64,000 nucleotides of DNA from Paenibacillus donghaensis. GTDB taxonomy: Bacteria > Bacillota > Bacilli > Paenibacillales > Paenibacillaceae. This document shows, piece by piece, positions 1,150 to 61,405 of this stretch. The stretch is taken from contig NZ_CP021780.1 in assembly GCF_002192415.1 (NCBI RefSeq), positions 6,572,001 through 6,636,000 of the forward strand. The letters run 5' to 3'. A program made the position numbers and the translations under genes. Position 1 is the stretch's first letter. Every line of letters begins with the position of its first letter. A model generated the notes under the pieces. It had not been told where the DNA came from. It worked only from the letters and a program-made list of their open reading frames with translations, and made no database searches.

Positions 1150-2550
1150 TCACATGATTCCGAAATGCCTGTTCTCATTCGCGGCAGCAATCGGATGCTG
1201 CTCCATCCCTTTTACAATATCCCCGTATTCCATCCGCTGAGCAGCGTCCGCATATTCACGGTTGGTTTCGAACAGGATCACGACCTTAATCAGCTCCTTG
1301 CCGTTGTTCAGCCGGATCGCCAGCTTCAGACTCTGGAGCACCAGCCGAACCGCTTGTTGGTACTGGTTATGGCTGGTTAGATACAGCGCCGTCTGATAAC
1401 TTAGCCTGTACAGGCGGTCGACATTGATAGGGTCCTGAAACTGCTCAAACCGCTGGATCTCCCTTGAGAACCGCGCCAGTATCGCATCGGCCTTAAAGCC
1501 GTAGCGGTTGGCAGCCTGCATGATAATAATCAGGCCGGCCAGAATCTCACCAGGGTTCTCTGCCAGAAAGGCAGTATAACCGGGCAACACCGAGATGTTC
1601 CCACCAAGCAACTCCAGAGCGAAGCTGTTGGCTGCCGCATACATGGATAATTTCTCCACCGCAAGTCTTCCCTCATCATCAAGCAGCCTAAACCAACTAA
1701 GATCAGCATAACCTGCCGTGTATTTCTTGGCCTCTGCATAATGGCCTTGTTTGGTCAGTGCCATAGCCTTGATTAAATATCCATGACCATAATAAAAAAC
1801 AAGCGGACGCTCCATCCCCAGCATCTCTGCACGTTTGCTGCCGGACTTGACCGGTTCCTGCTGATAGATCCCCTGAGCCAGCGCTCTAAGCTCATCGCCA
1901 TATCCCTCCATCTCTTCCCATCTGTGTAGATGGAAGCAGACCTTGGCCAACCTCAGCAACCCCTCCAGCTGTAACGGCTCGGGAAGACGGCCTCTAAACG
2001 GCTCAAACACAATCAGGGTGCGCAGCCTCTCCTCCATATCCACGATGGCCTGCTGGGAGATGAAGATATGGAATTGGCTGATGGCAAGACGTTCGGAATA
2101 GCGGTCCGTCTCATTCTCGGCAACAATTCTGTAGAAGGCAACCGACTCCTGAACCTTCCCGCTGCAGAACAGCTTCTCTCCTACCGAATAGACAATATCC
2201 AAGGCCTTGGCGGATTCAAGCAGCCTGCCGAGAATCTCATCGATGCAGGATTGTTTCCCCAGCTCTGTACAGCGGATCAGAAATGGCTCCAGCCTGCGGC
2301 GCGAAATCTTGCGCTCGCTGAAGCATTCCCCCACATAAAGCGGGTAGAGCCAGCCTTCGGGGAATCCGAGCGACTTAGTGATGGCATCCAGCTGGCCCAA
2401 GGAAATCGGCTTGGGCGGATTGCCATGCAGGATGGCGCTGAGACTGCCCCGGTTTAGACCCGACAGCTTGGCAAACGAAGCGAGAGTATGGCCCGAACGG
2501 GACAGCTGCTTCTCAATCTCTGAACGTATCGTAGTCAAGTTCCCCTCCAC
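1150..2550 (-). CDS. XRE-type HTH regulator with long TPR-like helical domain
   Basis: Residues ~5-65 form a Cro/C1-type helix-turn-helix ('HTLASFAKLSGLNRGSLSAIL...PISLGQLDAITKSLG'). The remaining ~390 residues look all-helical, with repeated 34-residue-like pairs such as 'SVGEKLFCSGKVQESVAFYRIVAENE' and 'GYLIKAMALTKQGHYAEAKKYT', as in TPR regulators of the RRNPP class and the large paralogous set found in Paenibacillus. RRNPP relatives respond to short peptides, but no adjacent secreted-peptide gene was seen here, so a peptide ligand is speculation. Length 466. Start is uncertain: GTG at 2550 has no good ribosome site, whereas TTG at 2538 lies 5 bases after GGAGG. The gene is monocistronic with its own terminator. 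Confidence 0.75.
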   Translation of the reverse strand: MEGNLTTIRSEIEKQLSRSGHTLASFAKLSGLNRGSLSAILHGNPPKPISLGQLDAITKSLGFPEGWLYPLYVGECFSERKISRRRLEPFLIRCTELGKQSCIDEILGRLLESAKALDIVYSVGEKLFCSGKVQESVAFYRIVAENETDRYSERLAISQFHIFISQQAIVDMEERLRTLIVFEPFRGRLPEPLQLEGLLRLAKVCFHLHRWEEMEGYGDELRALAQGIYQQEPVKSGSKRAEMLGMERPLVFYYGHGYLIKAMALTKQGHYAEAKKYTAGYADLSWFRLLDDEGRLAVEKLSMYAAANSFALELLGGNISVLPGYTAFLAENPGEILAGLIIIMQAANRYGFKADAILARFSREIQRFEQFQDPINVDRLYRLSYQTALYLTSHNQYQQAVRLVLQSLKLAIRLNNGKELIKVVILFETNREYADAAQRMEYGDIVKGMEQHPIAAANENRHFGIM

Positions 2551-2702
2551 CCCGTTCTATCCTCTGCTTCTATACTTTAGGATTCTAATAAATGACATTA
2601 TAGGGTAAGGCTGCCGCAACCATAACAAAAGGAGGAGCTCCCGCTCCCCTCTTGATTCTGAACCTACCATCTATAGCTGTATACAGGAGGAGACCTGCTC
2701 CC

Positions 2703-2984
2703 TTATTGACTGATGGTTATGGAATGATTGCGCGAACTGCCAGGGTAGGAGGCTGTTCCCGCCTTGTGGCTGCGCAGCTTGTCCATCATCCGGTTCTGGG
2801 CCATGACAATGTAACCGTCCAGCCGCTCACTAAGCTCCAGCACCACACGGTCGCTGAGACTGCGCTCCTGAGCCACCTCAAGCAGTTCACTTCTAAGGCT
2901 CTCTATGGTCAAAAATAACTCATCTTCTCTATAATCTCTTCTATGATCGTCCCGGGATGAAGCCTGATGAACCATCACGATCAC
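2703..2984 (-). CDS. Spo0E-like aspartyl-phosphate phosphatase
   Basis: This 93-residue protein has the compact two-helix hairpin of the Spo0E family with the signature S-x-x-L-D-x-x-I seen as 'LSERLDGYI', preceded by the amphipathic helix 'LFLTIESLRSELLEVAQE'. Known members dephosphorylate Spo0A~P and so restrain entry into sporulation; the Asp of the motif is the functional residue. Family length is usually 55-90 residues, which fits. Several GTG/ATG codons are clustered at the start (GTG ATC GTG ATG) behind AGAGAGGTG, so the exact N-terminus is uncertain by 2-3 residues. The gene stands alone. The presence of this gene supports a spore-forming host. Which response regulator it acts on cannot be told. 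Confidence 0.8.
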   Translation of the reverse strand: MIVMVHQASSRDDHRRDYREDELFLTIESLRSELLEVAQERSLSDRVVLELSERLDGYIVMAQNRMMDKLRSHKAGTASYPGSSRNHSITISQ

Positions 2985-3121
2985 TCACCTCTCTATCCAC
3001 TTCACTTTTACCTCTTTCTTTATCATAAATCATGATGCCAAAAAAACATAATTAGAAAATAAAGAAAAATATGTAGATTTAACACGAGATAGCGGCGCCG
3101 TCCTTTTTGAGACCCTATCCG

Positions 3122-4045
3122 CTAATCGGCAGCCCCATTCTCCCAGCCGGAGACCGGATATTGCTCACCCAGCAGTCCCTTGGCAAAAGTGATCCATTCC
3201 CGCGCCGCAAAGGATAAATAGCGGTCTCTGCGCCAGATCATGCCCAACTGCCAGGGAATAGCAGGCTCCGCAAGTGCAATGACCCCAATCCGGGAACGGT
3301 CCATGTCACGGCAGATGGTCTCCGGCAGCAGCGCAATGCCCATCCCTGCGGCCACCATCCGGCTGATGAGGTCCCATTGCGAGCTCTCATAGACCACCTT
3401 GGGCTGGAAGCCCGCCTTGACGCAGGCAGTAATGATTCGGTCATGGAGCGCGAAATCCTCACGAAACAGCACGAATTCCTCCTCGGCCAGCTCGGCGAGC
3501 GGTACCTGGTCCACACCGGAGAGCCGGTGTCCGGCGGGCACCAGCAGCTGCAGCTTCTCTTCAATAAAGGTGAAACAGTGAAATTTGGCCTTGTTGACTG
3601 GCAGCACCACAACTCCGATATCCAGCAGCCCGGTCTCTACATCGTTCTCCACCTTTTTGGCTCCGTCCTCATGCAGCCGGATCGTCACCTCGGGATAACG
3701 TCTGTGGAACTGGCCGATAACGGCCGGGAAGAAGCTCGCCCCAACCATCGGCGGCAAGCCGATACGGATATGGCCTTGCTCCAGATTACGCAGACTGTCC
3801 AGCTCCGAGGACAGGCTGGAGAAGGATTCAACAATGTTCTGCGCTTTGGGGAGCAGAATCTCGCCCGCATCCGTCAGGCGGATGCTTTTGCCTTCCCGGT
3901 AGAACAGATCCGCCCCGAGTTCAATCTCCAAATTGCGAATCATTTTGCTGATTGTGGGCTGTGTAATATATAGAGACTCAGCAGCTCTGGAGAAGCTGCT
4001 GAGTCTGGCGGCCTGAACGAAATATTCCAGTTGTCGGACTTCCAT
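3122..4045 (-). CDS. LysR family regulator of the cidAB-type operon (CidR/YwbI-like)
   Basis: The 307-residue protein has an N-terminal winged HTH at residues ~1-60 ('MEVRQLEYFVQAARLSSFSRAAESLYITQPTISKMIRNLE') and a periplasmic-binding-like co-inducer domain ('GHIRIGLPPMVG...'). It is divergent from two genes encoding CidA/LrgA- and CidB/LrgB-like membrane proteins, with 111 bp between start codons. The same arrangement is known for ywbI-ywbHG of Bacillus subtilis and cidR-cidABC of Staphylococcus aureus, where the regulator activates the operon during overflow metabolism. Regulation of the neighbours by this protein is inferred from position. The start ATG at 4045 follows a GGAGGGG site. Confidence 0.85.
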   Translation of the reverse strand: MEVRQLEYFVQAARLSSFSRAAESLYITQPTISKMIRNLEIELGADLFYREGKSIRLTDAGEILLPKAQNIVESFSSLSSELDSLRNLEQGHIRIGLPPMVGASFFPAVIGQFHRRYPEVTIRLHEDGAKKVENDVETGLLDIGVVVLPVNKAKFHCFTFIEEKLQLLVPAGHRLSGVDQVPLAELAEEEFVLFREDFALHDRIITACVKAGFQPKVVYESSQWDLISRMVAAGMGIALLPETICRDMDRSRIGVIALAEPAIPWQLGMIWRRDRYLSFAAREWITFAKGLLGEQYPVSGWENGAAD

Positions 4046-13225: not shown

Positions 13226-13520
13226 GGCGACTACTTAGGTCCCATTGAGGATTCAGAATGCTGCACTAGAGCCTTCAGAGAAATTAGATGCGAAAGTGCA
13301 TCTAATTTCAGTTGAAACTCCTGATATCGGGCAAATAAGTGCGAATCTGCAACTATTTTCGCGTAAATCGACTCTTTAGCGCTCAGAACCCAAAATTAGA
13401 TGCGCTTTCGCACTTATTTGCTCTAAAACGGAAAAACCCGCCGAATTAGATGCAGATTCGCAACTAAATCCGTGGGATGTTTATGAAACTAATTAATTCC
13501 CACTCGAACTGACGGACCCA
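13226..13520 (+). repeat. MITE-like intergenic element, copy A (right end lost)
   Basis: This gene-free stretch begins with GGCGACTACTTAGG, one end of a repeat family found also at 41.9, 60.5 and 60.9 kb, and carries four ordered imperfect palindromes at 13281-13308, 13333-13358, 13393-13419 and 13443-13470. The first has perfect 11-bp arms (AAATTAGATGC / GCATCTAATTT). The matching right end CCTAAG..GTAACC was not found; similarity fades around ACGGACC. Left flanking sequence is TAGTTGCACAAGT, which resembles the palindromes themselves. No coding frame of note. Confidence 0.75.
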
Positions 13521-41874: not shown

Positions 41875-42195
41875 GGTTACTATTTAGGTCTCAGCGAAGA
41901 TTTAGAATATTACTCCGGAACTTTCAACGCAAATAGATGCAGAAGTGCAACTAATTACAGCCGAAACCTCTATCAGGAGGTGATTAAGTGCGATACTGCA
42001 ACTAATTTCGAGAAAATCAAGTCTTCTACGCTCAAACTCTGGAATTAAGTGCCTATTTGCAACTATTTGCTCCAAAACGTAAAAAATCAGCTAATTAGAT
42101 GCACTTTTGCAGCTAATTCAATGGCTCGGATTTAACGGACCACTACGAAGTTAAATATTCTATATTCTCATCATACGGATGCCTAAGCAGTAACC
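41875..42195 (+). repeat. MITE-like intergenic element, copy B (complete)
   Basis: Begins GGTTACTATTTAGG and ends CCTAAGCAGTAACC (12 of 14 positions pair as inverted ends). It is 321 bp and colinear with copy A: four palindromic units of the AATTAG/AAGTGC type near 41931-41956, 41993-42009, 42041-42067 and 42091-42117. Flanks are ACATTC and ACTTTC, a possible diverged 6-bp duplication. An outer pair TAGTGGTC (41833) / GACCACTA (42138) also exists. It fills the gap between the acetyltransferase and the pyrimidine operon end. Confidence 0.8.
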
Positions 42196-60249: not shown

Positions 60250-60304
60250 ACAGAAAGGAGCTGTCCCACAGGCCATGGTTATGGCTGGGACAGCTCCTTT
60301 CTGT
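60250..60304 (+). terminator. Strong terminator of the amylase gene
   Basis: ACAGAAAGGAGCTGTCCCA pairs perfectly over 19 bp with its inverted copy TGGGACAGCTCCTTTCTGT around a 17-base loop. A T tract is included in the 3' arm rather than after it. Confidence 0.75.
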
Positions 60305-60479
60305 AAGTATGGATGGGAGTGTTGATCCTGCAACTCATCTACCTCGCACGCTTGCGTACAAGCCTAAAGTGACAAGAATCGTTGTACTTTCGCTAACTAC
60401 ATCATCCAACTTAATTCCCAGTGGGGATTAAGAAGATTGCCCTGGAGCGTTCCGGTTCGGAGCAAATAGATGCGAAACT

Positions 60480-60780
60480 GGTTACTACTTAGGCCCGCTA
60501 GCCCTCTTCGCTCGTAACCCTCACTTCGATTTCAGACGGTTGCGGACTCAGGAGCCTCTATTTGCTGTACATAGGCCGTTTTGCAGGATTAACGGACCCA
60601 GGAGCCTCTATATCACAGAAAACCCTCGCTTTTGAGCCTGTTTTGACGACTTAGGGGCTATACGGTCCGTAAGACTTCAAAATATCGCTGATAGGAGGAA
60701 ATAGGGGCTATACGGTCCGCTAGAATGCAGGTTACCTAGTTACAAGGGCTTGGAGTCTCGCAGGGTCCTAAGTAGTAACC
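60480..60780 (+). repeat. MITE-like element with same ends but different interior (type II)
   Basis: GGTTACTACTTAGG and CCTAAGTAGTAACC are perfect 14-bp inverted ends of a 301-bp insert in the first palindrome loop of the older copy; AAACT lies on both sides (60475-60479 and 60782-60786, with one extra C on the right). The interior is unlike copies A, B and D: two direct CAGGAGCCTCTAT units (near 60548 and 60599) and two AGGGGCTATACGGTCCG units in inverted relation (near 60653 and 60703), which can pair as AAATAG-GGCT...TCCGC arms. Confidence 0.7.
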
Positions 60781-60897
60781 CAAACTGCAACTAATTTCGG
60801 ATAAATCAGGCCTCTCACGCTCAAAACTCCGAAATAGATGCCTTTTCACACTTATTTCTTCCAAAACGCAAAATTCCCACCATTTAGATGCACTTTT

Positions 60898-61207
60898 GGT
60901 TACTACTTAGGACCCCATAGGAAAGGAGCATCAAATTTTGATCGCCACATCAGTCCAATCACGGAATTAGTTGCGAATCTGCACCTAATTCACCGATTTT
61001 CCCCGTTTTGAAGCAAATAAGTGCCATAATGCACTTAATTTCCGATTCTGAGCGCTGAACAAGCAATTTACTCGTAATTAGTTGCATATTCGCACTTATT
61101 TACCCTCTAACAGCCGTTTGCGTTGAAATTAAGTGCGTTTTCGCATCTAATTTCTTTGAAAGGATCTAGTGCAGCATTCACATCCTCAGTAGACCTAAGC
61201 AGTAACC
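60898..61207 (-). repeat. MITE-like element, copy D (complete, 6-bp target duplication)
   Basis: 310 bp with ends GGTTACTACTTAGG and CCTAAGCAGTAACC (13 of 14 pair). A perfect ACTTTT direct repeat flanks it (60892-60897 and 61208-61213). Removing the element and one repeat restores an uninterrupted palindrome ATTTAGATGC-ACTTTT-GCAACTAAAT. Read on the minus strand it is colinear with copies A and B, including CTGCACTAGA, four palindromic units and GCGCTCAGAA. Confidence 0.8.
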
Positions 61208-61405
61208 ACTTTTGCAACTAAATTCTCCTTCGAAAAAACATTCATTGCGGAGTCGGGATTATCGGTTACTTGTTGCGATTGGCTGCGGATGATGAGATGC
61301 AGTATGCAATGGTTTGGAAATTATTAGTTTAGAGATCACGTCAGTTGTTAGCCCTATCGGTTGGCGGCTGGGTTTAGTGGTGTCCGTGGCGGTTAGGCCG
61401 CGGCA

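Follow-up and report, generated by a model that had tools for sequence, protein, structure and literature searches.

We propose that the nest of repeats in the window (the whole stretch of 64,000 nucleotides that was analysed, positions 6572001-6636000 of the 8,542,333-bp chromosome of the host, Paenibacillus donghaensis) very probably consists of non-autonomous copies of an IS66-family transposon of the single-gene, ISGst1-like kind, which target P palindromes. A transposon and its preferred target, which are usually met apart, would thereby be joined in one family.

Organization of the nested elements

The nest sits between the convergent alpha-amylase and bioY genes. It comprises two elements with inverted ends, A and B, both of which lie inside an older copy, as the original prediction had it. 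The window contains seven matches to these ends (at most two mismatches), as compared to a mean of 0.12 in shuffles, and the pieces of the older copy can be aligned to intact copies of the P kind (77% over 137 bp; 37/37 positions around palindrome 1). The features are as follows (coordinates of the window):

60411..61235, + strand: older P-type copy with decayed ends, interrupted by elements A and B and lacking one ~51-bp unit (outer limits set by eye)
60466..60473, no strand: left arm (ATAGATGC) of the older copy's split palindrome, whose right arm is at 60787-60794
60473..60480, no strand: left 8-bp flank of element A, CGAAACTG, agreeing with the right flank at 7/8 positions and mapping to palindrome 1 of the older array
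60481..60779, + strand: element A, an A-type MITE with 13-bp inverted ends at 60481-60493 and 60767-60779
60540..60561, + strand: A-type palindromic site 1 of element A, degenerate
60590..60611, + strand: A-type palindromic site 2 of element A
60651..60672, - strand: A-type palindromic site 3 of element A
60701..60722, - strand: A-type palindromic site 4 of element A (site spacing 50/61/50)
60780..60787, no strand: right 8-bp flank of element A, CCAAACTG; maps to palindrome 2 of the older array
60834..60855, no strand: palindrome 3 of the older copy, degenerate, uninterrupted
60884..60891, no strand: left arm (TTAGATGC) of the older copy's palindrome 4, whose right arm is at 61214-61221
60891..60898, no strand: left copy of the 8-bp target duplication of element B, CACTTTTG, 8/8
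60899..61206, + strand: element B, a P-type MITE with 13-bp inverted ends at 60899-60911 and 61194-61206
60967..60988, no strand: P palindrome 1 of element B, an intact target site
61017..61038, no strand: P palindrome 2 of element B
61078..61099, no strand: P palindrome 3 of element B
61129..61150, no strand: P palindrome 4 of element B (spacing in element B 50/61/51)
61207..61214, no strand: right copy of the 8-bp target duplication of element B, CACTTTTG, 8/8
41876..42194, + strand: third P-type MITE of the window, with palindromes at 41933, 41984, 42045 and 42095 and flanks CACATTCG / CACTTTCC (6/8)
13227..13500 (about), + strand: fourth P-type copy of the window, with a decayed left end (GCGACTACTTAGG) and palindromes at 13284, 13335, 13396 and 13446 (right limit set by eye)

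Both elements were predicted to have fallen into the loops of palindromes. A palindrome arm does stand on each side of each element, and element B is a clean insertion, whereas element A probably is not. The direct repeats ACTTTT and AAACT (5-6 bp) had to be redrawn, as the duplication spans 8 bp and the end 13 bp; ACTTTT is only the middle of CACTTTTG, which is repeated at 8/8 positions around element B (60899-61206).

An Rfam search of the window returned no family, plasmids gave no DNA match to the nest, a protein scan of the genome contigs found nothing and the phage comparison of the nest yielded a single protein match, at 28%. On the 3' side of the amylase gene, a perfect 19-bp inverted repeat with a 17-bp loop (60250-60304) is probably the terminator of that gene.

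A mobile family of about 265 copies

Elements A and B belong to one mobile family with ends GTTACTACTTAGG (13 bp) and an 8-bp target duplication, of which the 8.54-Mb genome holds about 265 copies. This number follows from the search of the host genome called for by the original prediction: the exact 14-bp end matched 106 + 113 times (0 + 0 for the reversed control), and 308 + 311 times when two mismatches were allowed (42 + 47 for the reversed control). The near-equal exact counts (106 forward, 113 reverse) led us to drop the idea that nearly all the elements lie in one orientation. The exact 14-bp end occurs in only 4 of 60 genomes searched, including that of the host (G000), the other three having one match each.

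Close reading covered 40 stretches, 30 loci and the window, i.e., 867,538 bp after merging or about 10% of the genome, a sample picked around known ends and not at random. Its 88 left-right pairs of ends comprise 44 A, 26 P, 14 E and 2 IS66 copies and 2 singles. The 8 bp next to the 13-bp end are identical on both sides in 34 of the 88 pairs (1.5% with shuffled partners), and the ninth base is not common to both sides. The 8-bp frame is also kept outside P palindromes, at 67358 (ATAAATCC), 1407871 (TAAGACTC) and 74496 (CAAGATAC), all 8/8. The short copies can be called MITEs, as they have the ends and the duplication of the IS66 copies without a transposase gene.

The resident IS66-type transposase

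The absence of a transposase, noted in the original prediction, is true locally, but three intact IS66-family copies with the same ends, none of them with a stop codon, occur elsewhere in the genome. All three have an 8/8 duplication, a length that is usual for the IS66 family, and all three lie in the middle of a palindrome of the P type. The two sampled ones (1605 and 1629 bp), which answer the proposed search for a transposase gene bordered by these ends, are each filled by one open reading frame (501 and 509 amino acids) that ends 5 bp or less before the right 14-bp end; the transposase genes lie at L069, 5678-7207, and L038, 5248-6753. Both proteins, when scanned, matched PF03050 (E = 1.9e-49 and 6.3e-50) and NF033517 (308.8 and 315.7 bits, for a cut-off of 180). 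The accessory genes tnpA and tnpB, which are typical of many IS66 members other than the single-gene kind, are absent from both elements, and this fits the single-gene kind only (that of ISGst1, subgroup ISBst12). From the common ends, duplication and target, the MITEs are apparently moved by this resident IS66-type transposase.

Other candidates were considered as the autonomous partner, namely the 1.7-2.2 kb copies with IS256, IS4 or IS110 genes. They were rejected, as they group with the E or A MITEs in clustering, and their genes were apparently brought in later by unrelated elements that inserted into the following MITE copies:

L037, 5945-7673: IS256 (frame broken, two open reading frames)
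L062, 2855-4688: IS4
L032, 4319-6513: IS110

Two inverted arms around a 6-bp spacer resemble the core site of a tyrosine recombinase, and such an enzyme might have made the insertions, with a 6-bp duplication. We give this reading next to no chance, and dropped the 6-bp duplication, because the elements with these ends are filled by a gene for an IS66 DDE transposase and the 8-bp duplications are present outside palindromes too. No recombinase gene bordered by the ends was found, the open reading frames of the five long copies being IS66 (two), IS256, IS4 and IS110.

Palindrome arrays and target choice

Each of the three kinds of MITE, P, A and E, contains imperfect palindromes of about 22 bp. 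The P site reads WTARNTGC-N6-GCANYTAW and occurs four times per P copy; there are 834 intact sites (matches per strand) in the host genome and 0-7 in each of the 59 other genomes searched. The sample holds 29 full P arrays, spaced 51/61/50 in 27 (counting both directions) and 50/61/50 in two, and other P sites in runs of one (41), two (14) and three (10). The A site, TAACGGAC-N6-GCCYCTAT, likewise occurs four times per A copy, in the order ++-- and spaced 50/61/50 (six full runs), while E sites, approximately ATAGGGAA-N6-CCRCTAAT, come singly, in pairs or in threes, about 52 bp apart. At three A-type sites of the host genome (2037940, 7146432 and 7146624), AGCGTGTCGATTC or AGGCTGTCGATTC stands in place of one arm; these sites are either a variant form of A or the product of another insertion.

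Both arms of a P palindrome stand at the right distance around 40 of the 47 sampled copies with a 7-8/8 duplication, as compared to 0.05% of random positions. By kind, these are 26/27 A, 8/9 E, 2/2 IS66, 4/8 P and 0/1 unclassified copies. The remaining seven copies keep one arm, and four of them, outside P arrays, show by eye a frame resembling TA.. / ..CTA. Since four of eight P, one of 27 A and one of nine E copies lack one good arm, the palindrome is preferred and not required.

In the sample, P arms adjoin a transposon end in 146 cases, each end being counted separately, and 215 P sites are intact, whereas A arms never do so (0 junctions, 146 intact A sites) and E arms do so at one doubtful junction, near 762956 (50 intact E sites). 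From this we conclude that the transposase tells palindromes apart by sequence. The proposal that the elements target the palindromes they themselves carry thus stands for the P kind (element B and the older copy) and fails for the A kind, whose palindromes receive no insertions in this genome. The target arms agree with the transposon ends at 71/135 positions (46.8 in shuffles), a likeness that is only a lead, as the 15 arms were picked and their register was set by eye.

All the sites used are palindromic, with the break in the spacer, which is what would be seen if the transposase recognised a DNA or RNA hairpin or cruciform as a structure and inserted into its loop. We consider this quite improbable, for the following reasons. 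First, the 29 full P arrays show no arm covariation and no variable arm position that pairs clearly above shuffled arms. Second, some arm positions are mostly unpaired: positions 4-5 pair in between 0 and 9-10 of the 29 arrays, except position 4 of palindromes 1 and 4. Third, the A and E palindromes, although built on a plan just as palindromic, receive no insertions (junctions: A, 0; E, 0 or the doubtful one). A two-fold-symmetric duplex site fits these data better. We propose that a transposase dimer would dock on both arms, reading the outer TA-R / Y-TA and the inner TG|C...G|CA, and would make cuts staggered by 8 bp around the middle of the N6 spacer, where the element would be joined.

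Almost all A, E and IS66 copies have the flanking palindrome halves, which could for this reason be taken for outer ends of the element itself, with no target involved; the original prediction had likewise left room for a longer terminal structure. This alternative is extremely improbable. First, 834 palindromes stand intact without an insert, at fixed places of the arrays. Second, the flank is the rest of a P-type array, of which the 867,538-bp sample contains the 29 full, four-palindrome and insert-free examples; within the host genome, such uninterrupted P copies serve as stand-ins for empty sites. Third, the 8 bp next to the end vary among copies and yet agree between left and right. Fourth, other flanks are found beside the same ends, both in the relatives and in the host genome, where some P and E copies lie in other sequence with the same 8-bp duplication.

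With the palindromes as targets, each landing of a P MITE would bring four sites, i.e., landing places for the next arrivals, from which nests would grow. A family carrying four of its own targets could expand where it already lies at little cost to the host, and may restrain itself through the supply of targets, which can be tested. None of 72 element clusters lies in an open reading frame of at least 150 amino acids (as called by a crude finder). The neighbours of the clusters are convergent in 29 cases, tandem in 32 and divergent in 5 (n = 66), as compared to 96, 235 and 92 of the intergenic gaps of the same stretches (n = 423). This intergenic setting may reflect either target choice or selection.

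Unequal flanks and array collapse

The flanks of 86 copies were mapped to 27 reference arrays, 39 of the 86 remaining unmapped. Among copies with a duplication of at least 6/8, the two flanks fall in the same palindrome in 31 cases, in different palindromes in 5 and on opposite strands in 1 (21 unmapped); with less than 6/8, the numbers are 2, 7 and 1 (18 unmapped). Both flanks thus lie in one palindrome in 31/37 mapped copies with the better duplication and in 2/10 with the poorer one, which indicates that many unequal flanks belong to elements whose two sides lie in different palindromes of one array, the outcome expected of recombination between two inserts. Such exchange between inserts sharing an array would delete units of ~51 bp. 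Element A is one of the five copies with a good duplication and flanks in different palindromes; it is probably not a clean insertion, and one ~51-bp unit is missing from the older array.

Comparison with known systems

The family resembles ISGst1 of the Geobacillus plasmid pGS18 in its DDE_Tnp_IS66 domain, single gene and 8-bp duplication, and the ISGst1 ends (GTAACTATTCAG..) resemble GTTACTACTTAGG. Unlike the host family, the ISGst1 copy and two Planococcus copies have no visible palindrome at their site. As compared to MITEs in general, the host MITEs are alike in being short and gene-free, with transposon ends, a target duplication and hundreds of copies, and differ in holding an array of the family's own target site.

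REP, BIME and REPIN sequences are intergenic, palindromic and multi-copy, and are paired in inverted order; REPs and REPINs have an associated RAYT (Y1) transposase and a conserved GTAG head. The host arrays differ from them in being ++-- tetrads, spaced 50-52 / 58-62 / 50-52 bp, with a genome-specific spelling.

Several insertion sequences, IS1397, ISKpn1, IS621, ISPa11, ISPpu9/10 and ISRm19/22, are described as inserting specifically into abundant intergenic REP palindromes, the transposase being thought to pick the target (PMC1525189). REP-directed insertion is known for other IS families (PMC1525189). The host family likewise uses a fixed insertion point in an abundant intergenic palindrome (the 40/47 copies and 0/72 clusters above). 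The REP-targeting elements described belong to the IS3, IS110, IS4, IS256 and IS5 families, whereas the host family is IS66, of which the main text of that paper makes no mention; nor, as far as that text goes, are its REPs described inside the element's own MITEs, unlike the P palindromes (PMC1525189). Sequence-specific targeting of palindromes in an IS66 lineage, palindromes that change with the lineage while the ends stay constant, and MITEs bearing their own target array look new, the literature side of this statement being weak.

Relatives in other genomes

Relatives of the transposase (E <= 1e-60) occur in 18 of the 394 genomes of the bacterial family searched, including G000. In other genera, at 47-50% identity, they retain GTTACTACTTAGG-like ends and 8-bp duplications. 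All the copies of G069 (7/7) and G103 (4/4) have a TG arm on one side and a CA arm on the other, from local palindromes that read AATAACTG..CAGTTATT and AAATACCTG..CAGGTATTT, respectively. A looser palindrome pattern occurs 859 times in G000, 113 in G069, 9 in G103 and 0-4 in the other 15 genomes. In G064, G070 and G060, some copies sit in palindromes of tandem arrays of period 51, a period returned by TRF for 4/4 loci chosen because repeats had already been seen there; one of the two G060 copies shows neither array nor duplication. No clear palindrome is present at the insertion sites of G313, G268, G241, G312, G327 and G027, which are seemingly arbitrary. In a tree of 33 rows, G060, G064, G070 and G074 form one supported clade, G000 stands alone on a long branch and the G069 and G103 copies fall outside that clade. 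Constant ends together with target palindromes that vary between lineages offer material to find the target-reading part of the IS66 transposase, and a basis for site-directed integration tools for laboratory strains.

Of 13 MITE loci in the relatives, six have a clear internal period of ~51-52 bp (three in G064, two in G074, one in G070), three in G313 have palindromes ~52 bp apart with a weak overall periodicity and four have no array (L176 and L177 of G070, L192 and L193 of G027); the spelling of the palindromes differs in each genome. These loci bear on the possibility that the four internal palindromes are a transposase-recruiting enhancer of MITE mobility, their target role being a side effect. 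In its favour, the spacings come close to 5, 6 and 5 helical turns, which would put the sites on one face of the helix, and arrays recur in MITEs of other genera. This enhancer role is nevertheless unlikely, because A and E copies have moved though the resident transposase does not target their palindromes, and because the four loci just mentioned lack a clear array. For an array of targets, spacings near whole helical turns would likewise place the four sites on the same side of the DNA.

A-type sites were found in 139 of the 394 family genomes and E-type sites in 78 (one mismatch allowed, counts of 1-2 being near the control level). Tetrads of the ++-- order (50-52/58-62/50-52 bp) also occur free of ends, at L197-L216 (G069), L229 (G099), L222-L228 (G111) and L230-L241 (G003, G263), with a spelling that differs from genome to genome. 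No transposon end (at most two mismatches) lies within ~1.2 kb of any of the 20 array loci of G069 or of the 20 in G111, G099, G003 and G263, and four G003 tetrads that were compared show by eye no similarity beyond the outer palindromes. In G111, the cores TAACGGAC / GTCCGTTA stand at 50 and 61 bp in 5/7 arrays, the full A-type pattern being present in 0/7, with right arms that differ. These end-less arrays indicate that the arrays do not depend on the transposon ends.

The phased arrays are probably an independent and older repeat class of the bacterial family, which would have been enclosed in IS66 ends in the host lineage; a MITE could have arisen by enclosing an array, for instance between two inserts of one array. 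More widely, we tentatively suggest, giving it somewhat less than an even chance, that the tetrads (two direct and two inverted sites of ~22 bp, at ~5/6/5 turns) are an undescribed class of intergenic repeats serving as docking arrays for one lineage of IS66 transposases. Each lineage would read its own inner bases while the ends stay constant; where the array is packed between transposon ends, as in some genomes, it would be a self-propagating landing pad steering copies away from genes, and the A and E arrays would be pads for transposase specificities that are absent.

The target duplications of G064 (L178-L180) and G070 (L169-L175) are, by eye, 9 bp and not 8, and the stagger may differ between lineages. 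At L169, a MITE with an array of period 51 (1161-1440) stops at a palindrome half of a second array of period 51, the next palindrome of which holds an IS66 copy (1441-3310), a nest resembling that of the window in another genus.
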